Origin: Flavobacterium gilvum
GTDB lineage: Bacteria > Bacteroidota > Bacteroidia > Flavobacteriales > Flavobacteriaceae
Direction: 5' to 3'
Length of the DNA stretch: 64,000 nucleotides
Assembly (NCBI RefSeq): GCF_001761465.1
Contig: NZ_CP017479.1
Span: 186,001 to 250,000, forward strand
In this document: one piece after another, positions 22,901 through 56,557 of the stretch
Layout of the letters: each line of letters begins with the position of its first letter
Position numbering within the stretch: the stretch's first letter is position 1
The notes under the pieces: generated by a model
Told to the model about the DNA's origin: nothing
Seen by the model: the letters and a program-made list of their open reading frames with translations, nothing else
Databases searched by the model: none
Program-made: the position numbers and the translations under genes

Positions 22901-23132
22901 AGATGTGGTAGTTTCATATAGCATTCCAAACACTTATGCTCAAAAATTAAAACTTACCAATGCAAGTATTAGCCTTTATGGAAAAAATCTATTTATGTGG
23001 ACACCTGCTGAGAACCCTTATATAGATCCAGAATTATCAACTTATGGAGATGGTTTATTGAGTGAAGCTGGAGAATTTGCAACCAATCCTTCTCAAAGAT
23101 CTTTTGGAGCAAGTCTTAAATTAACATTCTAA
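19935..23132 (+). CDS. SusC/RagA-type TonB-dependent outer-membrane transporter (locus 1)
   Basis: Imports nutrients across the outer membrane with TonB energy, as the barrel under its SusD lid. Order of parts: signal peptide to AQ (residues 1-22), carboxypeptidase-regulatory-like domain (ERTVSGIVKDNANLPIPGVS through FSYVGMKS), plug (LYVVDGTPINNSS; SALYGSRAANGVILITTK) and a 22-strand-type barrel ending FGASLKLTF. It has 1065 residues. The ATG at 19935 is chosen over one 36 nt upstream because it begins the signal peptide and matches the start of the second SusC. It is followed 14 nt later by its SusD. The substrate cannot be read from sequence; peptides are possible by analogy with four-gene loci. 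Confidence 0.9.
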   Translation: MRLKFKGLVVLFLALLAQISFAQERTVSGIVKDNANLPIPGVSVIIKGTRNGTQTDFDGKYTIKVTPDQTLVFSYVGMKSQEHKANSTSLNVTLTNSATELEGVTVTTAMGIKKQKRSLGYATASVGAKDLTDVANVNVFESLSGKVAGVDISTPAQPGASSKVIIRGFNSLSNNSPLYVVDGTPINNSSNSGTTSTRSYDAGNGVSDLDPNNIESMSILKGAAASALYGSRAANGVILITTKSAKNKSKISIDFLTSTDFNEVSRVPHLQDGFGQGWNGLSYSTWQGAANANNTVSNENGSWGAKYNGEERAWGSIVNGVQQVKPYVALPNNIKDFYDTGTTFTNSLRLSGGGENSNFSLNMSTVDSDGVFPSDADAYKRHTFGLNAGISSNKLTVRTSLNYIYKDQNVVNTGQGNTQEGSTVQQTLLQIPLDISIVDLKDYKNNPFNTPSNFFSPYVDNPYWSLQENSTNIIGNRVFGNVNLSYKITDKLVANYQMGGDYRNEKIKSYGAIMSFLPGSANADAGKAPVLGGVTERINENLEMDSNFSINYNTAINEDFNLNIMAGFNANQRGGSSLRASVTNLDIPNFYELSNSALSPIVVQDDFMRRSYGVFASVEGSYKNKLFATLTGRNDWTSTLPKGNNSYFYPSLNISGVVLETPEHFIKLRAGVAQIGNDTGFYQTNNTMIQGNAALGFGNIFLPIGGVNGYEFASNLGNSNLKPERTTEFELGFESNFYEKRVNLDLSVYQKKTTDLLFSRPLAASSGFASQTDNILDLQNKGIEIVLNIVPVRVKDFQWDFTTTFTKNESKVLDVAYGLDKITLASIYGVNFVAEKGQPLGVFKAYMPQYTPDGRPIATSAGYYKIGSDQTTVGTSQRDFVMGLKNNFRYKNFTLGCSFDWKQGGEMYSYTKRAANFSGSGIETTFNDRNPFIIPNSVVETVVDSNGNMQYAENTNPVTLANITNFYNTSANPGIEATHVIDKTFVRLRDVVVSYSIPNTYAQKLKLTNASISLYGKNLFMWTPAENPYIDPELSTYGDGLLSEAGEFATNPSQRSFGASLKLTF

Positions 23133-23146
23133 AAAGAAAGAAGAAA

Positions 23147-24649
23147 ATGAAAAAAATTATTATAGGCCTATTGGTGTTATCAACTACATTCATGGGATGT
23201 AGCACTGATTTAGATATAAACAAGGATCCAGACAACTTAGATCCTGACACAATCCCTATGGCATCACAACTTCCTGCCGGAATTATCGGAATCGTAGGAG
23301 CCGAAGGAGGGATATTTTCAATCATTGGAGGATTTTGGGCACAATATTACACCCAATCTTCTGCTGCAAATCAATTCAAAAACATAGATTCTTACACAGT
23401 TACAACAAATGATTATAACTATGCATGGAATTCAATGTATGATGGTCTTGCAGACATTAAAAATGTTCAAAGAAGAGCACTTGCTGAACAAAACTGGAAC
23501 TATTACTTAATTGCAACTACTTTGTATGTTCAAGCGCAACAAGTAATGACCGATTTTTATGGAGACATTCCTTATACAGAAGCATGTGACCCAAAAATTG
23601 CAACTCCAAAATTCAACAAAGGAGAAGAAGTTTATGACTTAATGATTGCAGATTTGGATGCAGCCTTGGCTAAAGACTTGACTACATCACAAGGAACTGC
23701 TCCTGGCAAAGATGATTTCATCTTTGGTGGAAAAATGCAAAACTGGAAAAATTTTGCAAATACACTAAAATTGAAAATTTACATGCGCCAAACTGCCAGT
23801 GCAACAAGGGGCACTATGGCATTAAATGGAATAAAAGCATTATTAAGCAGCGGAGTTCCATTCTTGGATACAGATGCGGCAATGGCTAACTTTACAGGAT
23901 TGCCAAACTACGAAAATCCATTGTATGAGTTTAACTTCAAATTGAATGTAAGAACCAACATGAGATTAAGTAAAACTCTTGGTTCATTCTTAGATGCTAA
24001 TGCAGATCCAAGAAAAGACGCTTATGTGTATGATGCTTATGCTGAAGACGATGCTGCAAAAACCACAAAACTGTATATCTGGCAAGACCAAGGTAACTAC
24101 GGTGCAAACACTTCACTAGGTTATTCAGATCCAGGGCCAAAAAATGCCTCTATAGCTGACGTTATCTACAATGGCGCAGTAAAACCAGTTTATTTACTAT
24201 CTAAGGAAGAAAGTTTATTCTTGCAAGCTGAAGCTTTAGAAAGAGCTGGACAAGATGGTTCAACAAAATATACGCAGGCAATAACTGCTAATTTTGCAAA
24301 ATATGGTCTAACTGCTGCAAACATTCCTCCTTCTTATGCATATCCTACAGGAGCTACAGCTGCAGTAAAGTTAGAGGCAATCATTACTCAGAAATGGGCA
24401 GCGAGTTTCCCTGAAAACGGATTTGAAGCCTTCTTTGAGCAAAACAGAACAGGTTTCCCTAAAATTTCTGCAGTAGCCCAAAACAATCCTGCATACGTTG
24501 CTGGACAGCTGGCTTTTACTGCCAGCCCAGATGTACAACAAAAGACTCTTTTCCCAAAAAGAATTCCTTATCCATTGTCTGAAAGAAATGCAAATCCAAA
24601 TGTTCCTGCTCTTAAAGCAATTACTGATAAAATTTGGTGGAATCAATAA
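23147..24649 (+). CDS. SusD/RagB-family nutrient-binding lipoprotein (locus 1)
   Basis: Surface lipoprotein that closes over the SusC barrel and binds the ligand. A lipoprotein signal (MKKIIIGLLVLSTTFMGC) places the lipid on Cys18. The N-terminal TPR-like helices include YYLIATTLYVQAQQVMTDFY and GDIPYTEA. The end, FPKRIPYPLSERNANPNV then KIWWNQ, is typical of the SusD_like-2 branch. It has 500 residues and starts 14 nt after susC. Confidence 0.9.
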   Translation: MKKIIIGLLVLSTTFMGCSTDLDINKDPDNLDPDTIPMASQLPAGIIGIVGAEGGIFSIIGGFWAQYYTQSSAANQFKNIDSYTVTTNDYNYAWNSMYDGLADIKNVQRRALAEQNWNYYLIATTLYVQAQQVMTDFYGDIPYTEACDPKIATPKFNKGEEVYDLMIADLDAALAKDLTTSQGTAPGKDDFIFGGKMQNWKNFANTLKLKIYMRQTASATRGTMALNGIKALLSSGVPFLDTDAAMANFTGLPNYENPLYEFNFKLNVRTNMRLSKTLGSFLDANADPRKDAYVYDAYAEDDAAKTTKLYIWQDQGNYGANTSLGYSDPGPKNASIADVIYNGAVKPVYLLSKEESLFLQAEALERAGQDGSTKYTQAITANFAKYGLTAANIPPSYAYPTGATAAVKLEAIITQKWAASFPENGFEAFFEQNRTGFPKISAVAQNNPAYVAGQLAFTASPDVQQKTLFPKRIPYPLSERNANPNVPALKAITDKIWWNQ

Positions 24650-26540: not shown

Positions 26541-29500
26541 ATGAAACTAAAGTTCAATGGATTCCTGGTACTCCTTGTGGTACTAGTAGCGCAACTTACT
26601 TTTGCGCAAGAAAGATCTGTTTCTGGAATTGTTTCCGACAATGCAGGCATGCCTTTACCAGGCGTAAGTGTATTAGTAAAAGGAACAAAAAATGGAACAC
26701 AATCAGATTTTGATGGTAAGTACACGATCAAAGCAGCCCCAAGCGACGTATTGGTGTTTAGCTATGTTGGTATGAAATCTTCAGAAAAATCTGCAAGCTC
26801 AACTAGTATTAATATCAAATTAACAAGTGACGCAACACAACTAGAGAATGTAGTTGTAACAGCAATGGGTGTTAAGAGAGAGAAAAAAGCATTAGGATAT
26901 GCTACTCAAGAAATTAAATCAGAAGAATTAACCAAAGGTGCAAATAATAGCCTTGCTGGAGCTCTACAAGGAAAATTATCTGGTGTAAATATCACGCCTT
27001 CAAGTGGTGCCCCTGGAGCTTCTTCCCAAATCGTAATCCGTGGAGCACGTTCATTCACTGGAAACAACACTCCTCTATATGTTGTCGACGGTATGCCAAT
27101 TGCATCAACAGCTGATTACACTACCGGAAACAGTGTAACTGGATCAGATAGTTCAAACAGAGCTATAGACATTGACCCAAATGATATTGAATCCATAAAC
27201 GTTTTAAAAGGACAAGCTGCATCAGCTCTTTATGGACTTAGAGCCTCAAACGGGGTAATTGTAATAACAACAAAAAGCGGTAAAGGTGCTTCTAAAAATG
27301 GAAAACCAACAATAAATTTCTCAAGCTCATTTACAGCTGATAATGTATCTAGAAAAATTGATTATCAAAATGAATATGCTCAAGGAACCGCTGGTAATTT
27401 TGTTCCAACAAACTCCTTAACTTGGGGACCTAAAATTTCTGAATTACCAAACAATCCAACTTACGGAGGTAACGTTTCAAACATTCTGAATGGAGGGGAC
27501 ACAAAAACTCATGCAGGTCAATATTATGTACCACAAAGAGCTCAAGCAGGCTTAGATCCATGGGTTAAGCCTCAGACTTATGACAATTTTGGTCAATTTT
27601 TCACAACAGGAATTACAATAAACAATTCTTTCAGTTTAACACAAGCTACTGACAAAACTAATTACGCATTTAACCTAGGTTCATCAAACCAAGACGGTTT
27701 TATACCAGGAACTGGTTTTGACCGTTATAATGCAAAAGGAGCGTTTAGCACAAAATTAAGCAATGAATGGAAAACAGGATTTGTAGGTAATTATGTTCAC
27801 TCTAAAATCGATAAGGCTACAGGAGCAAATGATTCATCCGTTGCGGGTGCATACGCAAGTCCAAGAAGCTACGACTTAAAAGGAAACGGATACCAAACTC
27901 CTACTGATCCTTACAAACAAATTTACTACAGAACGACAGGATTCAACAACCCTTATTGGGCAGCAGCGCACAATATATTTGATGAGCAAACCGATCGTTT
28001 TTATGGAAATAGTTATGTTGAATTTGCTCCAAAAATATCAACAGACGATAAGCATAAAATATCATTCCGTTACCAACTTGGAGCTGATTCTTATACTACA
28101 AATTACAGAGACATCCAGGAATACGGAAACGCTCAAACTACAGCTGGTCACTTAGAAATTTACGGAATCACATCTAGAACTGTAAATTCATTATTGACAG
28201 CCAATTATGAATATAAAATTTCAGATGATTTCAATTTGACAGCTATGGTTGGTAATGAAATCAATGATAAATATGAGAAATCATATAGCATGACTGGAAA
28301 TGATCTTAACTTTGGTGGTTGGGCTAATTTGAAAAACACACAACAAACTGTTGCATCAGATGATATTAGCAAAAACAGAACTTTTGGTCTTTTTGGAAAC
28401 TTAAACCTTTCCTACAAAAACTTTATTTTCTTGGGTTCAACAATACGAAAAGATATCGTATCGTCCATGCCAAGAAACAATCGTGATTTTGTGTACCCTT
28501 CTGTATCTTTAGGTGTGGTATTAACAGAATTGGAAGCACTAAAAGGAAACTCGACAATTTCTTTTGCTAAATTAAGAGGATCATGGGCTGAAGTAGGTCA
28601 AGCTGGAAGTTATCTTGCTAACTACTACACAGTACCTGACTATTCAGGTGGTTTCTGGACAAATATTCCTGTAAGCTACCCAATTGGTGGAGTAAACTCA
28701 TACATACCAAACAATGTAATGTATGATCCAAACTTAAAACCACAAAACACAAAATCGTATGAAGTGGGTGGTGAATTAAGATTATTTAAAGATCGCGTAA
28801 GTATTGATTACACATATGCAAGACAAGATGTAGTTGACCAAATTTTCCAAGTGCCTTTAGCGGGTTCAACAGGTGCTGCTACTTTAGTAATGAATGGAGG
28901 AAAAATCCATACGAACAGCCACGAATTATCAGTAAGCGTAATTCCGGTAAGAACAAACGATTTTGAATGGACTGTATCTGCAAATTATACACAAATAGAC
29001 AACTATGTGGATGAATTGAAAGAAGGAGTAAACAACATTTTCTTAGGAGGATTTACAACTCCACAAGTTAGAGCCAGCATAGGAGAACGTTTTCCTGTAA
29101 TTTACGGAACATCTTTTGCAAGAGATACTAAAGGAAACATTATAGTTGATTCAAACGGATTGGCTATGTCTGGAGAAACTAAATCTCTAGGTACAGCTGC
29201 TCCAAAGTATACCCTAGGAGGAACAACTACTTTCAGATATAAGAAATTAACTCTTGCTGCTACTTTCGACTGGAAAAATGGAGGTGTAATGTACAGCGGA
29301 ACAAATTCATTAATGGATACCTACGGATTAAGTACTAAAACAGGAAACCGTGACCAACTAATGGTTCAAGAAGGAGTAACTGAATCTGGAGCCGTAAACA
29401 CAAAAGGTGCCACGAAACAAGATACCTATACAAGATATTCAAATATTGCTGAAACTGCAATATATGATGCTTCTTTCGTAAAACTTAGAGAGTTATCTTT

Positions 29501-29702
29501 AGGATACACAATGCCACAATTTTCAAAAGCAATCGATATGCGTATTTCAGCATTTGCCAGAAATATCCTGTTATGGGCTGCTATGCCAAATTTAGACCCA
29601 GAATCATCACAAGGAAATAACAATATGGCTGGAGCTTTTGAAAGGTTATCTGTTCCACAAACCACAAGTATTGGGGTTGGAATCAATTTAACTATTAATT
29701 AA
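26541..29702 (+). CDS. SusC/RagA-type TonB-dependent outer-membrane transporter (locus 2)
   Basis: A paralogue of the SusC at 19935, closest over the signal peptide and regulatory domain: MKLKFNGFLVLLVVLVAQ, then ERSVSGIVSDNAGMPLPGVS and FSYVGMKS. The plug has LYVVDGMPIASTADYTTGN and SALYGLRASNGVIVITTKSG. The barrel diverges strongly, so the two systems probably take different substrates. It has 1053 residues and ends SIGVGINLTIN. It is followed 16 nt later by its SusD. No extra lipoproteins follow in this locus. Confidence 0.9.
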   Translation: MKLKFNGFLVLLVVLVAQLTFAQERSVSGIVSDNAGMPLPGVSVLVKGTKNGTQSDFDGKYTIKAAPSDVLVFSYVGMKSSEKSASSTSINIKLTSDATQLENVVVTAMGVKREKKALGYATQEIKSEELTKGANNSLAGALQGKLSGVNITPSSGAPGASSQIVIRGARSFTGNNTPLYVVDGMPIASTADYTTGNSVTGSDSSNRAIDIDPNDIESINVLKGQAASALYGLRASNGVIVITTKSGKGASKNGKPTINFSSSFTADNVSRKIDYQNEYAQGTAGNFVPTNSLTWGPKISELPNNPTYGGNVSNILNGGDTKTHAGQYYVPQRAQAGLDPWVKPQTYDNFGQFFTTGITINNSFSLTQATDKTNYAFNLGSSNQDGFIPGTGFDRYNAKGAFSTKLSNEWKTGFVGNYVHSKIDKATGANDSSVAGAYASPRSYDLKGNGYQTPTDPYKQIYYRTTGFNNPYWAAAHNIFDEQTDRFYGNSYVEFAPKISTDDKHKISFRYQLGADSYTTNYRDIQEYGNAQTTAGHLEIYGITSRTVNSLLTANYEYKISDDFNLTAMVGNEINDKYEKSYSMTGNDLNFGGWANLKNTQQTVASDDISKNRTFGLFGNLNLSYKNFIFLGSTIRKDIVSSMPRNNRDFVYPSVSLGVVLTELEALKGNSTISFAKLRGSWAEVGQAGSYLANYYTVPDYSGGFWTNIPVSYPIGGVNSYIPNNVMYDPNLKPQNTKSYEVGGELRLFKDRVSIDYTYARQDVVDQIFQVPLAGSTGAATLVMNGGKIHTNSHELSVSVIPVRTNDFEWTVSANYTQIDNYVDELKEGVNNIFLGGFTTPQVRASIGERFPVIYGTSFARDTKGNIIVDSNGLAMSGETKSLGTAAPKYTLGGTTTFRYKKLTLAATFDWKNGGVMYSGTNSLMDTYGLSTKTGNRDQLMVQEGVTESGAVNTKGATKQDTYTRYSNIAETAIYDASFVKLRELSLGYTMPQFSKAIDMRISAFARNILLWAAMPNLDPESSQGNNNMAGAFERLSVPQTTSIGVGINLTIN

Positions 29703-29718
29703 TATAATTCAGAAAATC

Positions 29719-31176
29719 ATGAAAAAATATAAAGTCATATTACTTTCGGTGATTGCGTCAATTTCATTTAATTCTTGTTCAGAGGATGTAATGGACGATA
29801 TCAACACCAATGTAAACGATCCACAAGATGTACCAACCCGTTTTGCTATCACTGATGCAATGACAAGTACTGCTTTTAGCAATACTGGTTCAGAAATAGC
29901 TTTCTATACAGGTGTCTATGTAGAATTAAACGCGGGTGGTTTTGGTCAAATGTACAACGCAGAGGTAAGAAATGCCGAGCCTCAAAATCAGACAACTTTT
30001 AACAACTCTTGGAACAGTATCTACCAAACGATGTACAACCTAAAGTTGATAATCGATAAATGTACAACTGGTGCCGAAAAAGGTAACTATACTACATTGG
30101 GAATTGCTCAAATCCTTTATGCATATAATTTAGCTTTGCTAACAGATATGTACGGAGATGTTCCTTTCTCTCAGTCTTTTCAACCTGGTGTAATATTCCA
30201 ACCTAAATTAGACCGTCAGCAAGACCTTTATAATATTGTTTTCACAAATCTGAATGATGCAATAGTTAATTTAGGAAAAACATCTTCTTATGCAGCTTTA
30301 GGAACTCAAGATTTAATTTATGGAGGAAATAAAGCGCTATGGATAAAAGCAGCCAATGGTTTGTTAGCTCGTTACACACTACATCTTTCTTTTAAAACTC
30401 CTGATTACGCTAAAGTATTAACTTATGTTAGTAAATCATTTGCTAGTAAAAGTGAAGAATTTAAGATGAAAAACGATGGTATTCCAAACCCTTATTACCA
30501 ATTCGATAATGACAGAGGATACTTATTTGCCAGTAAAAGTTTATACGACAAGTTAATCGCTAGAGCAAATGACCCTCGTGCCGATGGTTATTTCCAAAAA
30601 ATCAGAAAAACTTCTGGAGCTCCGCTTACATTAGAGCTTTTTACAAATGGAGTTAGCCCACAGAGTCAAAATTATTCTTACTCAGCATTAATAGATTCTA
30701 GCAATCCTATATTTATGATGAGCTACCACGAGTTATTGTTCATCAAAGCTGAAGCTGAAGCAAGAAACTCAGCTGCTGTAACAAGCACAGCTAGTTTGAC
30801 TGCCGCTGTAAATGCTGCTTTCAACAAAGACGAAGCTGTTAATTTCTCAACTACAAATGCAGCTACTTATGTTGCTGGATTAGGTATTACAACTAATGCT
30901 AGTTTGCTAAAAGAAATTTCAGTACAAAAATACTTGTCTTTCTACGAAAACGAAACAGCTGAAGCGTACAACGATTACAGACGTCTATTGGCTATATATG
31001 GATCTGCTGCAGCACATCCAATTCAATTGGCAAACCCTAAAAATGCAACTCAGTTCCCACTTAGATTGCCTTACGGAGATTCTGATGTATCAACAAATGA
31101 TAACGTTAAAGCAGCATTTGGCAACGGAACTTATGTCTATTCAGAAAAAGTTTGGTGGGCTGGAGGAACTCGTTAA
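29719..31176 (+). CDS. SusD/RagB-family nutrient-binding lipoprotein (locus 2)
   Basis: Partner lid of the second SusC. The lipoprotein signal is MKKYKVILLSVIASISFNSC (Cys20). Landmarks are NSWNSIYQTMYNLKLIIDKC, ILYAYNLALLTDMYGDVPFS and the end VWWAGGTR. It has 485 residues, the same SusD_like-2 branch as the SusD at 23147. The terminator 57 nt downstream closes the two-gene operon. Confidence 0.9.
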   Translation: MKKYKVILLSVIASISFNSCSEDVMDDINTNVNDPQDVPTRFAITDAMTSTAFSNTGSEIAFYTGVYVELNAGGFGQMYNAEVRNAEPQNQTTFNNSWNSIYQTMYNLKLIIDKCTTGAEKGNYTTLGIAQILYAYNLALLTDMYGDVPFSQSFQPGVIFQPKLDRQQDLYNIVFTNLNDAIVNLGKTSSYAALGTQDLIYGGNKALWIKAANGLLARYTLHLSFKTPDYAKVLTYVSKSFASKSEEFKMKNDGIPNPYYQFDNDRGYLFASKSLYDKLIARANDPRADGYFQKIRKTSGAPLTLELFTNGVSPQSQNYSYSALIDSSNPIFMMSYHELLFIKAEAEARNSAAVTSTASLTAAVNAAFNKDEAVNFSTTNAATYVAGLGITTNASLLKEISVQKYLSFYENETAEAYNDYRRLLAIYGSAAAHPIQLANPKNATQFPLRLPYGDSDVSTNDNVKAAFGNGTYVYSEKVWWAGGTR

Positions 31177-39009: not shown

Positions 39010-40365
39010 TTACTCAACCAAACCTTTTACCTCATCAAAATTCAGGCCTCCGTAATTTCCGGAACTCATCAATAATAAAGCTGAATTATCAAGATTCAGG
39101 TTAAACAAATATTCTTTGAAAGCCACCGGATTGGTGTAAATAATCAAATCTTCTCTGTTGAAAGCTTTAGCGATTTGCTCATAAGTTACTTCCTCTAATT
39201 GTTTGATTTTTACAGCATCGGGCGAGTAGAAAACTACAGCAACATCAGCATATTGTAATGCTCCTTCGTATTCTTTCAAAAACTCAGCATTCAAACTGCT
39301 ATAAGTATGCAATTCCAAACAGGCCACAACAGTGCGGTTTGGATATTGCTCTTTCACGGCTTTGGTCGTTGCAGAAACTTTACTTGGCGAATGGGCAAAA
39401 TCTTTATAAGCTACTTTGGTTTTGCTTTCGGCGATTTTTTCCAAACGCTTGGACGCTCCTTTGAAACTGGCAATTGCTTCATAAAAATCGGCTTCATCAA
39501 CTCCCATGTTTTGGCAAATCCATTTGGCTCCCGCCAAATTATTTAAATTGTGCGCACCAAAAACTTCAATAGGCATTGGCCCTTCTGGCGTTTCCAAAAG
39601 CGTCACACCATCCTTCACCTCGTATTTTGGCGTTGTATAAGGAATTTTACGAATTGGATTTGTCGCTTTTTCGGCTACTCGTTTTACTTCGGAATCGTCT
39701 TCATTGTAAACCAAAATCCCTCCGTTTGTAATTTTATCGATAAAAATTTCAAACTGCTCCACATAAAAATCATACGTTGGAAAAACATTAATATGATCCC
39801 ATGCAATTCCAGAAATCAAGGCGATATTGGGTTGGTACAAATGAAATTTAGGTCTTCTGTCTATTGGTGAAGACAAATATTCGTCGCCTTCCAAAACCAT
39901 AAAATCATTCTCTTCGGTAAGATGCACCATCGTGTCAAAGCCTTCCAATTGTGCTCCAACCATATAATCCACTTCGATATTATGATAATGCATCACGTGC
40001 AAAATCATTGATGTTATGGTCGTTTTTCCGTGAGAACCGCCAACAACGACACGGGTTTTGTTTTTGGATTGCTCGTATAAAAATTCGGGATAGGAATAAA
40101 TTTTGAGCCCCAATTCCTGTGCTTTCAAAAGTTCTGGATTATCAGCTTTGGCGTGCATTCCAAGGATTATGGCATCAATATCGGCAGTTATTTTCTCAGG
40201 AAACCAACCCAGCTCTGCGGGCATAATTCCTTTTTTTTCCAATCTTGATTTTGAAGGTTCAAAAATAGCGTCGTCGCTTCCCGTAACCTGATATCCTTTG
40301 TTGTGTAATGCCAATGCTAAGTTGTGCATTGCGCTTCCGCCTATAGCTATGAAATGTGTTTTCAT
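39010..40365 (-). CDS. mpl: UDP-MurNAc:tripeptide ligase (Mpl), peptidoglycan recycling
   Basis: Mur-ligase family enzyme that joins recycled murein tripeptide to UDP-MurNAc. MKTHFIAIGGSAMHNLALAL is the UDP-binding loop, VVVGGSHGKTTITSMI (near 107) the ATP P-loop, and FMVLEGDEYLSSPIDRR the middle motif. The C-terminal domain includes YKDFAHSPSKVSATTKAVKE. It has 451 residues. It differs from MurC by the SAMHNLA motif typical of Mpl. A TPR lipid-envelope-type protein gene lies upstream on the same strand. Confidence 0.9.
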   Translation of the reverse strand: MKTHFIAIGGSAMHNLALALHNKGYQVTGSDDAIFEPSKSRLEKKGIMPAELGWFPEKITADIDAIILGMHAKADNPELLKAQELGLKIYSYPEFLYEQSKNKTRVVVGGSHGKTTITSMILHVMHYHNIEVDYMVGAQLEGFDTMVHLTEENDFMVLEGDEYLSSPIDRRPKFHLYQPNIALISGIAWDHINVFPTYDFYVEQFEIFIDKITNGGILVYNEDDSEVKRVAEKATNPIRKIPYTTPKYEVKDGVTLLETPEGPMPIEVFGAHNLNNLAGAKWICQNMGVDEADFYEAIASFKGASKRLEKIAESKTKVAYKDFAHSPSKVSATTKAVKEQYPNRTVVACLELHTYSSLNAEFLKEYEGALQYADVAVVFYSPDAVKIKQLEEVTYEQIAKAFNREDLIIYTNPVAFKEYLFNLNLDNSALLLMSSGNYGGLNFDEVKGLVE

Positions 40366-40427
40366 ATTTGTTTATTCGTTTATTCGTTATTTAGGTTTAA
40401 TCGAAAGATACTATTATCGAACACCCA

Positions 40428-41117
40428 CTATTTTTTAATTTTAAACTCTTCCCAAACCTTATTTGCTTTATCGGGTTGTTTCATTTTATTCTTATACAAA
40501 TCGGCTAATTTTTGATAACAAACTTTGGATTTTCCAATCAAAATAGCTCTTTTATATTGCTCTTCGGCATTGGTATATCTTTTAAAATATTCTTCAATAT
40601 GGCCTCGAGACAAATACCCGTCAACAGGTGACAATTCACGTAATTCAGACGAATATTTGATGGCTTTGGATTCGCTTCCGCCAACAATTCCGGGCAATTC
40701 CAAATTCAGTTCGATGAGAGCCCATCTTGCTTCGATGTGTTTTGGATTTAAAGTAATAGTTTTTTCAAAAGAAGAACGCACTTCACCAACCATTCCCAAC
40801 GCTTTTATTTTGCTAATTTCTGAAGCTTTCATTGCCAAAGCTCCTCCATATTTGTAAAAATAATTAGCCTCTGTTGGTTTCAAAATTTTTAGCTTTTTAT
40901 AATACATAATCGCCTTATCCCAAACCTTATTGTACGAAGCTATATCTCCTAAGTATTCCAGGGTTTTAAGGTTTGATGGATTGTTTTTAAGGTAATTTTC
41001 AAGAATGGGCTGCGCTTGATTGTATTTCCCTTCAACGAATAACTTTTCCCCTTTTTCAAAAGATTGGGAAAGCAACAACAAAGGAAATAGTAAAAAAAAG
41101 CCTAGCAGTAATTTCAT
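40428..41117 (-). CDS. Exported TPR-repeat protein
   Basis: A 229-residue protein with a signal peptide (MKLLLGFFLLFPLLLLSQ) and tandem tetratricopeptide-like repeats: FEKGEKLFVEGKYNQAQPIL, TLEYLGDIASYNKVWDKAIM and the later EEYFKRYTNAEEQYKRAIL. The start at 41117 is chosen because the upstream in-frame ATG would put 20 extra hydrophobic residues before the signal. The function is unknown; TPRs bind proteins. It lies 62 nt above mpl and could be co-transcribed. Confidence 0.75.
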   Translation of the reverse strand: MKLLLGFFLLFPLLLLSQSFEKGEKLFVEGKYNQAQPILENYLKNNPSNLKTLEYLGDIASYNKVWDKAIMYYKKLKILKPTEANYFYKYGGALAMKASEISKIKALGMVGEVRSSFEKTITLNPKHIEARWALIELNLELPGIVGGSESKAIKYSSELRELSPVDGYLSRGHIEEYFKRYTNAEEQYKRAILIGKSKVCYQKLADLYKNKMKQPDKANKVWEEFKIKK

Positions 41118-41171
41118 CTTCCAAAAATAAAGATAAAAAAGAAAAAATAACAATATTTGAACTCTGATTAA

Positions 41172-41211
41172 CCACAAAAAAAGCGCAAAAGTTCTTGACT
41201 CCTGCGCTTTT
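41172..41211 (-). terminator. Terminator of the AhpD-like gene
   Basis: Perfect 9-bp stem AAAAGCGCA (41179-41187) with TGCGCTTTT (41203-41211). On the minus strand the second arm runs into a seven-T tract. Confidence 0.85.
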
Positions 41212-44782: not shown

Positions 44783-47700
44783 ATGAAGAAAATTTATTTG
44801 GCTCTCCTATTATTCTCAACTTCTCTGTTTGCTCAACAATACGAAAAGGATTGGAACAGGGTTATCACGAACGAAAATGAAGGCAAAATAAAAACCGCCA
44901 ATAAAATTGTTGCTGAAATCTACAAGAAAGCGGTTTCTAAAAAAGATGAAAATCAGATTATCAAATGTTTTTTTTATTCTTCCAAGTATTTACAAGTGGT
45001 CGATGAGAATGCACAAACCAAAATTTTGAATAATCTAAAAAAACAAATCAAACAAGTCAGCATTCCATCTCAAGCGATATTGAATTTTGTTTACGGAAAA
45101 TGTTTGGATGATTATTTTAGGGAAAAAAGCTACAATATACAAAGCAGAACCAACACCACCATTCTGGATGATAACTTCTTGACTTGGAGTCAAAATGAGT
45201 TTAATACCCAAACGAATATTGCATTTGAAAAAACGCTGGAAAACGAAGCTATTTTAAAAAACACACCATTAATCAATTATGAACTTGTATTTGATTTTGT
45301 CGCCTTGGAAAAATTTAAAAAAACAAATCTTTTAGATTATCTGCTGAGCGAAAACATTTCTTTTTATACCCAAAAGATAAATCAATGGCGTTTTCAACCG
45401 AAAGATTTTAAGGAATATAAAAAAACACTTTTGGGTAATTCTAATGAATTTACTTCTCTAAAATTAGATTTTGCAAAAGATACTATCCTCAAAAAAGTTC
45501 TTTCTTTATACCAAAAAAAAGAAACGATTAGTCCTACTGCCGAAAATCAACTGGATAGGATTACTTTTTGCAATGATTATCTTTTAAAATCAGATTCGGA
45601 GTTTTTACAAACTTTGAATGTTCTTCAAAAAACCATCAAAGATGAAATACTGTTACAAAAAATTCTGCTAGCCAAAGCCAACATTTATGCCAAAGAAGCA
45701 TCAAAAGAAACACATCCCGACTATAATATAAAGGCCATTAGCACAATTGACACTATTTTGTCATTTCAGAATCAATCGAATGCTTATAAATTAGCACAAC
45801 AAAAAAAACAAGAAATCAACTCCAAATCACTTACTGTTCAACTTCAAAAATACACTTACGACAAAGAAAACACCAGAGCTTTTATACGTTATAAAAACAT
45901 AGACAACCTGAAAATTTCATTTTTCAAAATCAATCAAGCAACCGTTTCGAACTTTAACAATGTTATAAAGGATTCGCTTGTCGGCAAAACAAAAGCAATC
46001 CAATCTGTCACTACGTCTTTAATTAACAAAAAAGATTATCTAGAACACACAACCGAAGTGTTATTACCTCAATTGGAAAAAGGGAGTTATTTGGTTTATT
46101 TTGAAAGTGAAATAGACTCCAAAGGCAAAAAGGGATTTGGGCATGAATTCATCACAGTTTCCAATTTATGTCTTTTGGCCAATTCAAAAGACCAAATTGA
46201 ATATTATCAGGTTTTGGATCGAAAAACAGGAAAACCATTGGAAAATATTGCGATTGAATCTCCTTCTTTTTCAATAAAAACCAATAATAAAGGAGTAGCC
46301 ACATTTGAAAGAAAAGGCAAAACAAATTATTACTATGGATATGAAACCTTCAAGGTAACTTCCGCAAATGATTCGATACAAATTGCAAAAAATTACATTA
46401 ATAATAGTGCTGATTATTCAGATGATAAAAACGATAAATTTGAAGGAAAAGTTCAGTTTTTTCTAGATCGTGCCATTTATCGTCCAGGACAAACCGTCTA
46501 TTATAAAGGAATAACTATTCAGAAAAAACAAGATACTATAACTGTTGTTCCAAAAACAAAATTCAAGATTACATTAAAAGATACCAACAATAAAAGCATT
46601 AAAACAATTGAAGTTACAACCAATGAATTCGGTTCTTTTTCGGGAGAATTTGTTTTACCTAAAACAGGTTTGACAGGAAATTTTAGCATCGAAGCTACTA
46701 AACCTGAAAACCCCGGAAATTATCTTATTGTCAACAAAAATAAAAACTCGTTTTCGGATAACGTAGTTTATGAATATTCTAGCATCCGATTCAAAGTCGA
46801 AGAATACAAGCGCCCAAAGTTTGAAATTACATTTGACCCAAACAAAGAAAGCTATCTAGTTAATCAAATAATTACCGTAAATGGAAATGCAAAAGCATTT
46901 TCAGGAAGTAACATAACAGATGCCAAAGTAAAATATCAAGTATTTAGGGAAACTTATACTTCAAATGGGCTGGGTTATGCTACATGGGGTAGTTGGACAA
47001 CTATAGATACAGGAGAAACGAAAACGGATGATTCTGGTAAATTCAGTATCAAATTTAATGCAGTACCAGATGACCAGGTGAGCAAAGAAAGTCTGCCAAT
47101 TTTTGTATATCGAGTAAAAGCAGCTGTTACTGATTTGAATGGAGAAACACGTTCCTCCGTTTTCGAAATTAACATAGGATATCACGCTTTGAAACTAAAA
47201 GCTTCAATACCTCGAAGAATTGAAACAAAAGACAAAAATGAAATCCAGCTCAATAGCTCTAATCTAAATGACCAATTTATAGCTGTAAATGGTGAAATAA
47301 AATTGTATCATCTTAAAGAAAATAGTTTAAAATTCAAGCCTAGAGTTTGGCAAATCCCTGAAATTAAAAGTATTTCCGATCAGGATTTTAATCGTTTTTT
47401 TCCATATGAAAATAACGAACAAACAGACTTACGATTAGCTCAAGGCAATTTGCTTTTTACAAAATCTGTAAATACAGAAAAAGACAAATCGATTCCTCTT
47501 GATTTCATTTCTGATTATAAATCCGGAAATTACAAAGTCGATTTTACAGCAAAGGACAAGTTTGACAACCCAATTACAGTCAGCACAATTTTTGAAGTCA
47601 TTCAAAGTAAAGATACCATAAACTCAAACAACCTTATCATTGCAAAACAACTCAATAATGACCCTAAAAAGGACGGATTTGTAATGGTGCAGTTACAATC

Positions 47701-50700
47701 TGCTATTCCCGAACTTTTCATTACCACAACCGGAAATTATGAAACAAAACAGTTTTTTGAGGAGAATACTATACTGAAAAACAATAAGGCTCTTGTAAAA
47801 ATACCGCTGAATCCATCATTTAAAAAAGCCATAAACATAGGATTTGAATGTATTTTCGAAAACCAAACCTTTACTCAAAATTTAGAGGTAGATTTAAAAG
47901 AGGATACACCCAAATTACAATTTGAGGTTGAAAGTTTCAGAAACAAAATAGAACCCGGAAGCACCGAAAATTGGTCTTTTAAATTGAATGCATCCAACAC
48001 TGTAAAAGAATCAGAAATACTGGCATCGATGTATGATAGCTCGCTGGATCAATTTACGAAGGAAAATTGGCAGAGTTTGGCTTTTAACAAATACAACTAT
48101 AATGGAATAAATTATAGCTCTTCTTTGGGATTTGATAGAACGTATTCGTCAATCCAAAATCTCAATCCTTTTCAAAAAGCATTGGAATTAAATAATGAAA
48201 ACATAAATTTAATGTGGTTTGGATTTGACTTCAATGAACCTTATTCCCTTCATAAGCAACAAGAATACTTAAAACAAATCTCCAAAAAAAGTAAAAAACC
48301 GCTTAATGCCAAATTAATTTCGGGTTATATTACAGACAAAGACCTACACCTCCTACCTGGAGTAAGTCTCTCAATAGGCGGAACACAAAGAGTCGCTTCC
48401 ACTGATTTTGAGGGTCATTATGAGATTGAAGCTGCAATTGGTGAAATTTTGAAAGTTTCCTACATAGGTCTTAAAACAAAAAACATTCGCATTAATTCCA
48501 AACGACAGGATATTCAGCTTGATCAAGAAGACAATTCCTTGAATGAAGTCACTGTTATAGGTTATGGGGCAATGAAAAAGAAAAGCTTCACAGGCACTAA
48601 TGAAGTAATTGAAGAAGACACATCTGTTCACAGCCTAGCCGGTATAGAAATGAATCTTGATGATAAACCCCCAGGAATTATGATCAGAGGATCCATTAAT
48701 GGAAAAACCGCCAATCCGCTGTACATTGTAGATGGAGAACCTATGGCTTTTGAACAAGTTCAATCAATCTCACCGTCTGATATCCTTTCAATGGATGTTT
48801 TAAAAGACGGAAAAGCCACCTCTTTATATGGAGAAAAAGGCAAAAATGGAGTCATCATAATCACAACAAAAAAATCTTTAGAAGCATTAACTCAAGTAAA
48901 AGCAAGAGCCAATTTATCTGAAACAGCTTTCTTTTTCCCAAATCTAAAAACAGATGCCAAAGGAAAAGTGAGTTTTAATTTCACTTCTCCGGAAGCATTG
49001 ACTGCATGGAAACTTCGTTTATTGGCACATAACAAAAATGCGGTTTCGGGTTATCTTGAAAAAAGCGTCATTACTCAAAAAGACCTGATGGTAACACCTA
49101 ATTTCCCGAGATTCTTTAGGGAAAAAGACAGTATTGTAATCACCACAAAAGTGGCAAATGTTACTAACGAAGCCAAAACCGGCATTGCGATACTGCAACT
49201 TTTTGACGCCACAACAATGCAGGCAATTGATGCCAAAATGAACAATACAAACACTACCAAAAACTTCACTATTCCTCCGCACGGCAATACTTCGGTAAGT
49301 TGGAAAATCTATATTCCCGAAGGTTTGCAAGGTGTTCAATACAAAGTTTTGGCCAAAGCAGGCAATTTCTCGGATGGGGAAGAAAATATCTTGCCTGTAC
49401 TAACAAACAATATGCTCGTTACCGAAAGTATTCCGATTTGGGTTAGAGAAAATTCAAAAAAGGAATACACTTTTGAAAATCTGAAAAACAATACTTCGAC
49501 CACTTTAAAAAACCATCAATTTACGTTGGAATACACTTCGAATCCTTCCTGGATTGCCATTCAGTCCTTACCTTATTTGATGGAGTACGAACACGAATGT
49601 GCGGAGCAGACTTTCGCAAGATTTTATGCCAATGCCTTGGCTACTGAAATCATTGCAAGTAATCCAAAAATAGCCGCTGTTTTTGAAACTTGGAGAAAAA
49701 ACGGAAAGTTGAATTCCAAACTCGAAGAAAACGAGGAATTAAAATCGATTATTCTTGCGGAAACACCTTGGCTGAATGATGCTCAAAGCGAAGACGAAAA
49801 GAAAAAGAATCTGGCTTTGCTTTTTGATTTGGAGAAAATGAAAACTTCGCAGGAAGCCACTTTTGATAAATTAAAACAAAAACAAAAACCGTCAGGAGGA
49901 TTTGCCTGGTTTGATGGAAGCGAGGAAAACGAATACATTACCCGACATATTCTTGCCGGTTTGGGTCATCTTTCCAAATTAAGTCCAACCGAAAATAACA
50001 ATGCTAAAATCAAAGAAATTGCTACGACCGGAATTCCGTTTTTAGACCAAAAGTTTTTGGAATACCTCAAAAGAAGAATTCAAAATTTAAAAACAACTGA
50101 TAAATTAATCTGGATAAACCCTTATTCTGATTTGCATTATTTATACACCCGAAGTTTTTATTTAGAAAATTATCCGCTTTCGGATACATTGAAAAAAGCA
50201 ACCAAATTATATCTCGAAACTGCCAAAAAAGATTGGCTCAACTATTCGTTGTATGAAAAAGGAATGACGGCTTTGGTATTGAATCGTTTTGGCGAAAAAG
50301 AAACTGCCAAAAAAATTATTGAAAGTCTGAAAGAAACCGCTTCCAACAACGAAGACTGGGGAATGTATTGGATTGCCAACAAATCGGGCTGGTATTGGTA
50401 TCAGGCGCCGATAGAAACTCAGGCACTGTTGATTGAAGCTTTTGCCGAAGTTTCCAACGACACCAAATCTGTAGACGCGATGAAAGTTTGGTTGTTAAAA
50501 AACAAGCAAACCAAAAACTGGCCCACCACAAAATCCACCACCGAAGCAATTTATGCGCTGCTGATGCAGGGAACCGATTGGATGAGTGTAAAAGACAATA
50601 CTGTTTTTAAAATTGGAGCTGAAAAAATCCTGACCAAAAAACTGTCTGAAAACGAAAAAGAAGCCGAAACCGGGTATCTAAAACTCAACTGGAAAGCCGA

Positions 50701-51241
50701 TGAAATCAAAAAAGAAATGGCAACAATCTCAGTCGAAAACAAATCGAAAGTTCCGGGTTTCGGAGGTATTTATTGGCAATATTTTGAGGATTTGGATAAA
50801 ATCAAAAGCAATTCGGGAGATAATTTATCCATTACAAAAGAATTGTATCTGAAGAAATCCACCAATAAAGGAGAAAACCTGGAAAAAATCTCTTCGAACA
50901 ATCCGCTGAAAACGGGAGATTTAGTGACCGTAAGAATTGTTATTTCTGCCAAGGAAGACATGGAATTTGTACACTTAAAAGATATGCGGGCAGCTTGTTT
51001 TGAACCTGTAGATGTGATTTCGTCCTATCAATATAAAGCGGGTCTGGGATTTTATAAAAGTACCAAAGACGTAGCAACCCATTTCTTCTTTGACCGGATA
51101 AACAAGGGAACTTATGTATTGGAATACGACATTCGGGTGAATAACACCGGGGATTTCTCCAACGGAATTTCAACGATTGAAAGTATGTATGCACCGGAAT
51201 TTTCGGGACATAGCAAAGGAATTCGATTAAAAGTTGAGTAA
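44783..51241 (+). CDS. Alpha-2-macroglobulin with inserted SusC-like regulatory domain and TonB plug
   Basis: A 2152-residue exported protein. The signal peptide MKKIYLALLLFSTSLFAQ sets the start at 44783 and looks like a type I signal, not a lipoprotein. The helical N-terminus is followed by an MG2 domain with DRAIYRPGQTVYYKG (from 562), further MG-type beta domains, then an inserted carboxypeptidase-regulatory-like domain (from 1178, LISGYITDKD...DFEGHYEIEA) and a plug (1253-1365, LNEVTVIGYG; NPLYIVDGEP; NGVIIITTKK). The A2M domain resumes at 1380 (ETAFFFPNLKTDAKG), followed by the thioester domain with CAEQ at 1606-1609. Known A2Ms trap proteases through a bait region and thioester. Here the plug module sits near the expected bait position. 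No barrel and no pbpC partner are present. Confidence 0.9.
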   Translation: MKKIYLALLLFSTSLFAQQYEKDWNRVITNENEGKIKTANKIVAEIYKKAVSKKDENQIIKCFFYSSKYLQVVDENAQTKILNNLKKQIKQVSIPSQAILNFVYGKCLDDYFREKSYNIQSRTNTTILDDNFLTWSQNEFNTQTNIAFEKTLENEAILKNTPLINYELVFDFVALEKFKKTNLLDYLLSENISFYTQKINQWRFQPKDFKEYKKTLLGNSNEFTSLKLDFAKDTILKKVLSLYQKKETISPTAENQLDRITFCNDYLLKSDSEFLQTLNVLQKTIKDEILLQKILLAKANIYAKEASKETHPDYNIKAISTIDTILSFQNQSNAYKLAQQKKQEINSKSLTVQLQKYTYDKENTRAFIRYKNIDNLKISFFKINQATVSNFNNVIKDSLVGKTKAIQSVTTSLINKKDYLEHTTEVLLPQLEKGSYLVYFESEIDSKGKKGFGHEFITVSNLCLLANSKDQIEYYQVLDRKTGKPLENIAIESPSFSIKTNNKGVATFERKGKTNYYYGYETFKVTSANDSIQIAKNYINNSADYSDDKNDKFEGKVQFFLDRAIYRPGQTVYYKGITIQKKQDTITVVPKTKFKITLKDTNNKSIKTIEVTTNEFGSFSGEFVLPKTGLTGNFSIEATKPENPGNYLIVNKNKNSFSDNVVYEYSSIRFKVEEYKRPKFEITFDPNKESYLVNQIITVNGNAKAFSGSNITDAKVKYQVFRETYTSNGLGYATWGSWTTIDTGETKTDDSGKFSIKFNAVPDDQVSKESLPIFVYRVKAAVTDLNGETRSSVFEINIGYHALKLKASIPRRIETKDKNEIQLNSSNLNDQFIAVNGEIKLYHLKENSLKFKPRVWQIPEIKSISDQDFNRFFPYENNEQTDLRLAQGNLLFTKSVNTEKDKSIPLDFISDYKSGNYKVDFTAKDKFDNPITVSTIFEVIQSKDTINSNNLIIAKQLNNDPKKDGFVMVQLQSAIPELFITTTGNYETKQFFEENTILKNNKALVKIPLNPSFKKAINIGFECIFENQTFTQNLEVDLKEDTPKLQFEVESFRNKIEPGSTENWSFKLNASNTVKESEILASMYDSSLDQFTKENWQSLAFNKYNYNGINYSSSLGFDRTYSSIQNLNPFQKALELNNENINLMWFGFDFNEPYSLHKQQEYLKQISKKSKKPLNAKLISGYITDKDLHLLPGVSLSIGGTQRVASTDFEGHYEIEAAIGEILKVSYIGLKTKNIRINSKRQDIQLDQEDNSLNEVTVIGYGAMKKKSFTGTNEVIEEDTSVHSLAGIEMNLDDKPPGIMIRGSINGKTANPLYIVDGEPMAFEQVQSISPSDILSMDVLKDGKATSLYGEKGKNGVIIITTKKSLEALTQVKARANLSETAFFFPNLKTDAKGKVSFNFTSPEALTAWKLRLLAHNKNAVSGYLEKSVITQKDLMVTPNFPRFFREKDSIVITTKVANVTNEAKTGIAILQLFDATTMQAIDAKMNNTNTTKNFTIPPHGNTSVSWKIYIPEGLQGVQYKVLAKAGNFSDGEENILPVLTNNMLVTESIPIWVRENSKKEYTFENLKNNTSTTLKNHQFTLEYTSNPSWIAIQSLPYLMEYEHECAEQTFARFYANALATEIIASNPKIAAVFETWRKNGKLNSKLEENEELKSIILAETPWLNDAQSEDEKKKNLALLFDLEKMKTSQEATFDKLKQKQKPSGGFAWFDGSEENEYITRHILAGLGHLSKLSPTENNNAKIKEIATTGIPFLDQKFLEYLKRRIQNLKTTDKLIWINPYSDLHYLYTRSFYLENYPLSDTLKKATKLYLETAKKDWLNYSLYEKGMTALVLNRFGEKETAKKIIESLKETASNNEDWGMYWIANKSGWYWYQAPIETQALLIEAFAEVSNDTKSVDAMKVWLLKNKQTKNWPTTKSTTEAIYALLMQGTDWMSVKDNTVFKIGAEKILTKKLSENEKEAETGYLKLNWKADEIKKEMATISVENKSKVPGFGGIYWQYFEDLDKIKSNSGDNLSITKELYLKKSTNKGENLEKISSNNPLKTGDLVTVRIVISAKEDMEFVHLKDMRAACFEPVDVISSYQYKAGLGFYKSTKDVATHFFFDRINKGTYVLEYDIRVNNTGDFSNGISTIESMYAPEFSGHSKGIRLKVE

Positions 51242-54236: not shown

Positions 54237-56381
54237 TTATTTTTTAATCGTCAATTCATCAATAATATTTTTGGCTCCGGCGTATTTATCGATTAACCAA
54301 AGTACATAACGAATGTCCACGTTGATTGTTCTTTGCAATTTAGGATCAAAAATAACGTCTCCTGCCATAGCTTCGATATTTCCGTCAAAAGCAATTCCGA
54401 TTAATTCTCCTTTTCCGTTAAGAACCGGTGAACCAGAATTTCCTCCCGTAATATCATTATCTGTCAGGAAATTTACTGGCATATAACCTGCTTTATCAGC
54501 ATATTGACCAAAATCTTTTGCTTTATTTAATTCAAGTAAACGAGCCGGTAAATCAAATTCCTGGTCTCCTGCTTTGTACTTTTTAACCATACTTTCCATA
54601 GAGGTATAGTTATTTATTTTGGCATCATTGCGTTTGTCCGCAGGCAAAGCACGAACTTTTCCGTAAGTAAGTCTTAAAGTTGAGTTTGCGTCTGGATACT
54701 TAATAGTATTCAATTTAGACTCTCTCAAACCTTCAACCAATAAGCGATAAGCTGTTGCAAAATTATCATCTGCTTTTGCCTGATCATCAGTTTTCGCTCT
54801 ATATTTTGCCAACAAATCATTCGAAATAATAAACAAAGGATCAGCTGCAATTAATTCTGCTTTTGGATTATTCATAAAAGCCGCAACCGATTCTTTCGAA
54901 GCAAAAATACTAGTGCCAATTGCCTTGTTTACATCTGCAGTAAAATCACCATTATTTGCTGATTTCATTTTAGCAATTTCAGGAGCCAAGCCGAATTCAA
55001 TGGCTTTAGAAGCATATAAATTCAATTGAGCAGTCAATACATCTTTTTCTAATGGCGCATAAAAACTACCATAAATAGTCCCAATCAATGCGTTAATCTT
55101 AGGAAGCATTTCGGCTTTTTTAGCGTCATTTTCTTTATAGTAAGAAAGTAAAGCATTTCCTAAATTGGTCGGTCCAACTGCATAATTTGAAGTACGCAAA
55201 AGCTGAGTCAGATAATTATCATGACGTGCTTTTAGATCCGTATTTTTATAATAATCATTAATTGTCGAAATTATATTTCCGTACTTACCTTTATTTTCCG
55301 GTTTTGCTGCCCACTGGCTAAATGCAACTTCCTGTTTAGTTTTGGTTGCCACTGTACCTGCTTTTGTTAAAGCATCAATCATCCCCTGTCGATTTTTCCA
55401 GTAATTTGCTGTTGAAGCATATTTAGATGCGTATTGCAAACGAACTGCAACATCTTTATCCATATACTTTTTCATTTGATCCATTCCGGTTTTTGCACCT
55501 TCAACCCAGGCAGGATAAGCATATTTTATGTTTTGCTCAATTCCGCCCGCCGGCATCCAACGGTTGGTACGCCCCGGATAACCAAGAATCATGGCAAAAT
55601 CATTTTCTTTTACCCCTTTGATACTTACAGGCAAATAATGTTTTGGCTGCAAAGGCACATTGTCTTTAGAATATTCGGCTGGATTTCCATTTTTATCCGC
55701 ATATACTCTAAACATTGAGAAATCTCCCGTTTGACGAGGCCATTCCCAGTTATCAGTGTCTCCACCAAATTTACCAACACTTTCCGGAGGTGTTCCTACT
55801 AAACGAACATCTGTATAATCCTGGTAAACAAAATAGTAATATTCATTTCCCTGAAAAAACGGACGAACAGAAACAGTGTATTTTCCACCTTCGCTATTTT
55901 CTTTTTCGATCAAAGCAATTTCTTGCTGAATTACTTTATTACGTTCTGTTTCGGTCATTTTATCATTCACTTTTGATAAAATTCGTTTCGAAACATCATC
56001 CATACGAACAAAGAAACGCACGTATAACGATTTTGGTTTCAATTCCTCCGAACGATTTTTGGCCCAAAAACCATCTCTCAAATGATTTTGTTCTGCTGTC
56101 GAAAGTTCAGCTATGGCACTATATCCACAATGGTGGTTTGTAAGTACCAAACCGCTATTTGAAACAATCTCGGCTGTACATCCACCATTGAATTGCACAA
56201 TTGCATCTTTTAAACTATGATGATTAATGCTGTAAATTTCTTCGGCTGTCAATTGAAGTCCCATTTTCTCCATATCCCTATGGTTGAGTCTTTCAATAAA
56301 CATTAAGAACCACATTCCTTCATCGGCTCTTACCGGGATTGCTAATAAGCAAACGGTTAAAAATAAAATTATCTTTTTCAT
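54237..56381 (-). CDS. S46-family dipeptidyl-peptidase, DPP7-like
   Basis: Exported serine exopeptidase that cuts dipeptides from peptide N-termini, feeding amino-acid uptake. The signal peptide (MKKIILFLTVCLLAIPVRA) sets the start at 56381; a longer frame to 56450 is ignored. The catalytic triad is visible: His in VLTNHHCGY (83-84), Asp in FGGDTDNWEWPRQTGDF, and Ser649 in TGGNSGSPVL. Eighteen residues after the Ser is Gly667 (AFDGN), the residue found in DPP7, which prefers hydrophobic P1, where DPP11 has Arg for Asp/Glu. It has 714 residues. Its leader shares a motif with the two susC genes. Confidence 0.92.
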   Translation of the reverse strand: MKKIILFLTVCLLAIPVRADEGMWFLMFIERLNHRDMEKMGLQLTAEEIYSINHHSLKDAIVQFNGGCTAEIVSNSGLVLTNHHCGYSAIAELSTAEQNHLRDGFWAKNRSEELKPKSLYVRFFVRMDDVSKRILSKVNDKMTETERNKVIQQEIALIEKENSEGGKYTVSVRPFFQGNEYYYFVYQDYTDVRLVGTPPESVGKFGGDTDNWEWPRQTGDFSMFRVYADKNGNPAEYSKDNVPLQPKHYLPVSIKGVKENDFAMILGYPGRTNRWMPAGGIEQNIKYAYPAWVEGAKTGMDQMKKYMDKDVAVRLQYASKYASTANYWKNRQGMIDALTKAGTVATKTKQEVAFSQWAAKPENKGKYGNIISTINDYYKNTDLKARHDNYLTQLLRTSNYAVGPTNLGNALLSYYKENDAKKAEMLPKINALIGTIYGSFYAPLEKDVLTAQLNLYASKAIEFGLAPEIAKMKSANNGDFTADVNKAIGTSIFASKESVAAFMNNPKAELIAADPLFIISNDLLAKYRAKTDDQAKADDNFATAYRLLVEGLRESKLNTIKYPDANSTLRLTYGKVRALPADKRNDAKINNYTSMESMVKKYKAGDQEFDLPARLLELNKAKDFGQYADKAGYMPVNFLTDNDITGGNSGSPVLNGKGELIGIAFDGNIEAMAGDVIFDPKLQRTINVDIRYVLWLIDKYAGAKNIIDELTIKK

Positions 56382-56387
56382 ATTATA

Positions 56388-56411
56388 TTTTGAATTAGTA
56401 ATGCGAATATA
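56388..56411 (-). promoter_or_regulatory. Promoter -7 box and leader of the S46 peptidase gene
   Basis: Minus strand: TATATTCG (56404-56411, one mismatch to TAnnTTTG), 4 nt, then ACTAATTCAAAA (56388-56399), then 6 nt to the ATG. The leader core is the same as in front of both susC genes. Confidence 0.5.
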
Positions 56412-56557
56412 ATTCATTTTCACAATTATAACCTCAAAAACACCTTTCAAAATAAATATACTTAATTATTTTAGACAGTTTATTATGAATTTAACATTAT
56501 TAATTAAAATTTCGCACTAAAAATTATAAACCCCAGAATTTTCTTTAACATAAACAA

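Follow-up and report, generated by a model that had tools for sequence, protein, structure and literature searches.

In a 64,000-nucleotide stretch of the Flavobacterium gilvum genome (the window; assembly GCF_001761465.1, contig NZ_CP017479.1, positions 186,001 to 250,000, forward strand), one gene encodes an alpha-2-macroglobulin (A2M) family protein whose bait region holds the front end of a SusC-type TonB-dependent transporter, consisting of an NTE domain, a Ton-box-like stretch and a shortened plug. Such pieces were found in many relatives of the protein, in which they are confined to the bait and drawn from the N-termini of transporters, not from their barrels. As many Bacteroidota relatives carry differing transporter pieces at this place, the bait is suggested to imitate the cell's own outer-membrane transporters, and we give a probability of about 0.47 to the reading that it imitates their periplasmic face and is cut to spring the trap. 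The features of the protein are as follows.

44783..51241, + strand: alpha-2-macroglobulin family protein with SusC-type bait module, 2152 amino acids; single open frame from the ATG at 44783 to the stop at 51241
44783..44836, + strand: signal peptide, residues ~1-18, without lipobox (sequence MKKIYLALLLFSTSLFAQ/Q, read by eye)
46457..46711, + strand: MG2 domain, residues 559-643 (Pfam PF01835, 64 bits, cut-off 33)
48050..48907, + strand: bait region, residues ~1090-1375 (flanking motifs ASMYDSSLD and NLSETAFFFP; profile placement against A2M, C5 and ECAM structures)
48317..48532, + strand: NTE (CarbopepD_reg_2) of SusC type, residues ~1179-1250 (Pfam PF13715 at 1179-1258, 47 bits, cut-off 32)
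48539..48568, + strand: Ton-box-like stretch LNEVTVIGYG, residues 1253-1262 (own SusC Ton-box profile, 21.7 bits)
48635..48877, + strand: shortened plug, residues ~1285-1365, with NPLYIVDGEP and NGVIIITTKK (own SusC plug profile, 66.9 bits)
48923..49177, + strand: A2M domain, residues 1381-1465 (Pfam PF00207, 59 bits, cut-off 21)
49598..49609, + strand: thioester motif CAEQ, residues 1606-1609 (sequence)
50825..51199, + strand: bMG10 domain, residues 2015-2139 (Pfam PF17973, 113 bits, cut-off 26)

The protein, the sole A2M match in its 4.40-Mb genome, was assigned to the A2M family by its MG2, A2M and bMG10 domains, which follow each other in this order and each exceed the Pfam cut-off, by a CxEQ thioester motif, and by a flexible bait region ahead of PF00207, located by profile placement and a weak AF2 model. 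A preliminary description of this DNA had already read the order of the MG2 and A2M domains, their separation by an insert and the position of CAEQ, and Pfam and the sequence bore it out. The lipobox anchor of an ECAM-type lipoprotein A2M was not found, as the signal peptide of the window protein contains no Cys, and a rough lipobox pattern was present in 0 of 94 full-length relatives. The window A2M is apparently periplasmic and soluble.

The SusC-type insert sits inside the bait region. A profile of the segment following the insert (A1) matched TEP1 at 622-853 (E 3e-7), C5 at 785-900 (5e-4), human A2M at 746-918 (0.0016), the ECAM chain at 941-1018 (0.003) and also CD109. Although the E-values are weak (3e-7 to 0.003), these matches fall at or just after the known baits or, in C5, the anaphylatoxin, and the module is therefore placed in the bait region. 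When residues 960-2152 were used in Foldseek, TEP1, A2M and C5 headed the list, with a TM-score of only ~0.17 and a model of mean pLDDT (predicted local confidence) 55.6. The human bait domain is located between strands 4 and 5 of MG6 according to PMC13069473, and PMC4498604 served as the reference for bait location in A2M structures. The module had previously been described as lying beside the bait; its link with the bait stands, but it lies within the ~1090-1375 stretch.

Over residues 1179-1379, the NCBIfam SusC/RagA model TIGR04056 was matched with an E-value of 2.6e-45 and 155 bits, compared to a cut-off of 368; the match stops at model position 220 of 981, so that there is no outer-membrane barrel and the whole-family score is not reached. 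Solved SusC chains match the same residues (8aa4, E 1.8e-22), in agreement with the earlier view of a SusC front end without a barrel. The regulatory domain and plug named in that view were recovered by PF13715 and by the SusC signature TIGR04057 at 1333-1363 (46.8 bits, cut-off 46.2), whereas Pfam Plug PF07715 gave no match in the window protein, whose plug is shortened in its middle. In the AF2 model of residues 1040-1475 (mean pLDDT 52), the NTE was modelled at pLDDT 77-89, with the SusC NTE structures 9hfj and 6ytc as top Foldseek matches, and the second half of the plug at 56-75. The Ton-box-like stretch lies within a segment of ~60 residues (~1251-1309) predicted to be disordered (pLDDT 24-38 in this weak model), a disorder that fits the expectation for a bait.

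Proteins resembling residues 1150-1480, a query that also includes ~100 amino acids of the A2M domain, were searched for among those 0.55-1.75 times as long as the window protein. An assembly join was rejected on the strength of 1785 matching proteins of A2M-like length, the best 120 of which all carry the PF13715 domain. Many orthologues among these 120 have a precomputed Pfam Plug match, and almost every one for which an organism is given comes from Flavobacterium, with a homologue from Flavobacterium johnsoniae (P0110) among them. For several of the 120 the recorded name is 'SusC/RagA outer membrane receptor' or 'TonB-dependent receptor plug', which agrees with the earlier suspicion that such fusions stand unlabelled in databases. 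In 100 homologues, chosen by similarity to the module region, the key Ton-box residues were near-invariant (L in 100, E in 95, V in 98, V in 95 at 1258 and Y in 96), and the window box has T where 90 of the 100 have V. Mean column entropy was lowest in the A2M domain (0.43), followed by the Ton box (0.71), the NTE (1.40) and the segment behind the box (1.63), the value of the box being read with this choice of homologues and its conservation in SusC too in mind.

To describe the spread of the module, 116 relatives were surveyed, made up of 36 subfamily loci from an even sample and 80 loci from named genomes. The even sample comprised 198 evenly drawn Bacteroidota genomes, 85 of them with A2M, and all 114 of their loci were examined; 36 passed the subfamily membership limit of 80 bits, and 33 gave no match to the window A2M segment. 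The 80 named loci were the best matches to an alignment starting with the window protein, and the 116 loci are not independent (the cores of L052 and L133 are identical). Profiles were built from 28 true SusC, after 4 of 32 without the signature pattern had been left out, and the thresholds (NTE 15, Ton box 5 and plug 10 bits) were chosen after the controls were seen.

At least one SusC-type piece was present in the bait of 75 relatives. The NTE profile was found in 37 of the 116 baits, the Ton box in 54 and the plug in 35, compared to 0, 0 and 1 of 2320 shuffled baits and to none of 1005 other segments of the same proteins with any profile. At a uniform 15 bits, the counts were 37, 36 and 33, respectively. 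Reversed baits at 5 bits gave no NTE, no Ton box and 1 plug among 115; at 5 bits the NTE profile also matches 83 of the 1005 other segments. Among 43 other A2Ms, with baits cut at a fixed distance from the thioester, two NTE, one Ton box and one plug were detected. In the even sample alone, 22 of 36 baits had some piece and 17 a Ton box or plug. As for combinations, 41 of the 116 baits had no piece (among them L019, cut to 16 amino acids and counted as empty), 21 only the Ton box, 16 all three pieces, 13 only the plug, 13 the NTE and Ton box, 6 only the NTE, 4 the Ton box and plug, and 2 the NTE and plug; those with the NTE only may be generic domains. When 33 SusC were divided behind the plug and used as BLAST targets, the N-terminal parts were matched by 56 baits and the barrels by none, the barrel targets being 2.7 times longer (26072 residues vs 9568). 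The independent NCBIfam SusC model detected the Ton-box-only baits L140 (E 1.4e-5) and L192 (1.2e-6), missed L190, was weak for L007 (0.12) and silent for L032. CxEQ follows the bait in 109 of the 116 relatives, so the trap is kept; the remaining seven (L015, L029, L030, L039, L044, L046 and L122) may not form a thioester, as the motif is missing there. In two members of other A2M subfamilies, L053 (47/81 bits with our profiles) and L054 (48/71 bits), the A2M domain is likewise preceded by an NTE and a plug.

Possible sources of the pieces were sought in the resident genomes for three deliberately chosen baits, L136, L007 and L032, the last two selected because they were transporter-like in look. 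The L136 bait matched a SusC of its own genome (718 bits vs 368) at 56% over 117 amino acids, and both share an odd GAGGV ending. In the L007 bait, 27 of 32 residues equal those of a resident SusC that belongs to a different subtype (416 bits, partial frame), with 68 of 96 DNA positions identical and proportions of non-synonymous and synonymous differences (pN and pS) of 0.08 and 0.90; two non-A2M proteins gave a similar comparison (pN 0.07, pS 0.83). The L032 bait has a Ton box and an RGGR plug like those of resident TonB-dependent receptors with NTE and plug, with the middle missing; L253, the scored receptor resembling it (partial frame), is far below the SusC cut-off. One capture with later losses was not formally rejected, but the baits of L007 and L032 are similar to resident transporters of other types. 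Among 35 plug modules that could be used, two of them from other A2M subfamilies, 11 had a SusC or VWA protein, and not another A2M module, as their nearest match (no such plug was obtained from L194 and L015, and L186 did not have the length needed for the plug tree). Capture of transporter pieces looks repeated. In the window genome there are 47 Plug matches, none of them in the A2M gene. A recent copy from a SusC of this genome was not seen, as the best full-length resident matches are 40-45% identical; judged by this identity, the window module is old.

The pieces are patchily spread and exchanged among relatives. On a quickly built A2M core tree, from which the bait was excluded and in which 41 of 112 branches are open, 19 changes were needed for the NTE, 34 for the Ton box and 17 for the plug. 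An eight-state label of the pieces needed 49 changes compared to a shuffled mean of 67.7, and the distribution is therefore both clustered and patchy. Outside the bait, the DNA of L136 and L140 is 91.1% identical, whereas inside it the identity drops to 38-62% or the alignment is gapped; the contrast is less sharp for L192 and L194, and L184 and L177 have retained the whole module at 87-98%. The ratio of non-synonymous to synonymous rates (dN/dS, NG86) of the cassette, defined as the bait from residue 76 on, was 0.10-0.61 in 12 of 13 pairs, one being not computable, with synonymous sites often near saturation; it fell to 0.10-0.12 in L184/L177, L121/L120 and L174/L135.

With the front end of a TonB-dependent transporter built into its bait region, the trap could work as follows. 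Proteases that reach the periplasm would cut the exposed N-termini of the transporters, and an equivalent cut in the disordered Ton-box segment of the A2M would untether the bait and expose the CAEQ thioester, leading to covalent capture of the protease as in ECAM. If the bait is copied from transporters of the same cell, the trap would be adjusted to the proteases by which they are attacked, and bait exchange would follow changes in the attackers. The loss of a SusC plug by proteolysis in a crystal, reported in PMC7782687, was counted for the mimic bait. A bait role was also the better half of the earlier guess, the interpretation of which is partly supported.

Several results weigh against mimicry. 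Spontaneous plug expulsion is judged likely non-physiological by the authors of PMC7782687, and the overall quality of the AF2 models is low (mean pLDDT 52 and 56). A single clade of all A2M plugs was not rejected (p-AU 0.246; 107 columns), and the 41 baits without any piece are such at the thresholds used. For the baits of L003, L014 and L021, which have no profile matches and were the first in list order after L016 and the wrongly cut L019 had been skipped, none of the resident sources was convincing, so mimicry is not required. Cassette dN/dS is mostly above that of the rest of the protein, and it exceeds the value downstream of the bait in those pairs that allowed both to be calculated. 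Of the two pairs without any piece, only L143/L145 was computable, and its value of 0.39 lies within the range of the piece-bearing pairs; therefore, the constraint is not special to the transporter pieces.

The main rival of mimicry is neutral reuse, in which any long, flexible and cuttable bait suffices and chance recombination brings in N-termini of SusC-type genes, which afterwards decay. We regard this as a serious though unlikely alternative. Donors are plentiful, given the 47 Plug matches in the window genome alone, and the pieces are patchy and decaying, with 41 of 116 baits lacking one and cassette dN/dS reaching 0.61, or 0.39 in the piece-free pair; barrel pieces might moreover be ill-suited to a soluble protein, so that mimicry would not be needed to account for their lack. 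In contrast, the restriction to N-termini (56 baits vs 0 to barrels), the Ton box kept alone in 21 baits, the preserved protein sequence of L007 despite nearly saturated synonymous sites and the dN/dS of 0.10-0.12 in three pairs count against such reuse. Another explanation is that the Ton box of the bait binds the C-terminal domain of TonB, holding the trap at working transporters or pulling on the bait. It draws on a motif like that of the SusC Bt1763, where the Ton box is DEVVVTG and its deletion or change to Ala causes growth defects resembling those of a SusD deletion (PMC7782687), on the near-invariant residues in the 100 homologues selected by the module region, and on the 54 baits with a Ton box, 21 of them with nothing else. 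However, the box is missing from 7 of 13 Flavobacterium-clade loci, the window box departs from the common V, and at an equal 15 bits it is not commoner (36) than the NTE (37), with a Ton-box profile of only 28 positions; docking on TonB is improbable. A combined version is less probable still, in which a decoy transporter bait would sense place or force, its Ton box engaging TonB at working transporters while the A2M patrols the route of foreign-protein entry; the bait would be copied anew from each lineage's transporters, in an arms race against the proteases or protein antibiotics by which these are used or attacked.

Two further proposals are very doubtful. Two cuts could free the NTE-plug module as a diffusible signal, like C3a/C5a; the module stands at the place of the anaphylatoxin in the fold, and its NTE is a compact fold by AF2 and Foldseek, but no obvious receptor or regulator was seen when the 12 commonest neighbour clusters were read by eye, and 21 baits have a Ton box without NTE or plug. 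Slightly less credible is the proposal, made in the preliminary description, that by means of its plug the A2M could enter SusC barrels or seal them. The SusC plug signature is present (TIGR04057), and a plug can come out of its barrel, in vitro at least (PMC7782687), whereas the plug of the window protein is shortened and has no Pfam Plug match, and in 81 of 116 relatives the plug scores below 10 bits. Moreover, in 34 of the 116 a Ton box is retained although no plug scores above 10 bits (21 with the Ton box only, 13 with NTE and Ton box), which is the opposite of what barrel docking predicts.

Among known systems, ECAM/YfhM (5a42, 4rtd) and the Salmonella A2M (4u48) share with the window protein the MG domains, a bait before PF00207, the CxEQ motif and a C-terminal MG10, the likeness to ECAM resting on weak profile and fold matches. 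ECAM is named a lipoprotein, whereas no lipobox was seen in the window A2M, and its bait is described as largely disordered in PMC4498604, whereas the window bait holds an NTE, Ton box and plug. The order of these pieces and the SusC signature are those of SusC/RagA transporters (8aa4, 6sli, 5t3r), but the window module has no barrel, a shortened plug and a position in the middle of a protein. In complement C5 (placed by profile), C3 and C4, a folded domain is likewise inserted at the bait position, although the anaphylatoxin fold is unrelated to the one inserted here. In Myxococcus Oar, according to PMC6434023, an NTE and plug with a Ton box bind TonB without the barrel and there is a tie to the protease PopC; Oar, in contrast, is a full transporter needed for protease secretion, not for trapping.

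Similar barrel-less modules of SusC-type NTE, Ton box and plug were detected by Pfam and NCBIfam in VWA/YfbK proteins of two genomes (L226, 2626-4737; L260, 1-2442, minus strand), where they stand ahead of a VWA domain and there is no thioester trap. Two M56/BlaR1 peptidases, L228 of the window genome (C1, 3148076-3149824) and L227 (764-3100), end in half-plug repeats that score 22-23 bits with Plug, just below the cut-off of 23.9. As barrel-less plugs occur in the VWA/YfbK proteins and as half plugs in the M56 peptidases, they are a wider habit of these genomes.

No functional operon was seen around the A2M loci beyond two frequent neighbours, which in the window are the following.

39010..41177, - strand: Mur ligase and TPR gene, frequent A2M neighbours (Pfam)

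Relatives of the Mur ligase were found at 49 and of the TPR protein at 30 of 73 flanked A2M loci. An S46 peptidase gene (54237-56450, minus strand) lies 3 kb downstream of the A2M gene. The window also contains two SusC-like genes (19899-24649 and 26541-31176), which were used in the profiles; behind each of them lies a frame that is SusD-like by length only.

Bait regions are commonly viewed as fast-changing filler. In one Bacteroidota A2M subfamily, they repeatedly hold transporter N-termini of more than one type, with the Ton box often as the sole remnant. The domain architecture of the module was already precomputed in databases, whereas the wider pattern of transporter pieces in A2M baits appears to be new, as no publication linking macroglobulins with SusC, plug or Ton-box modules was found in a literal-word search, which variant spellings, subscription papers and preprints would escape. 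For annotation, the SusC receptor labels carried by several such A2Ms are a warning. If the mimicry is true, the bait would reveal the periplasmic target that is guarded, and the protease targets of bacterial A2Ms would become testable.

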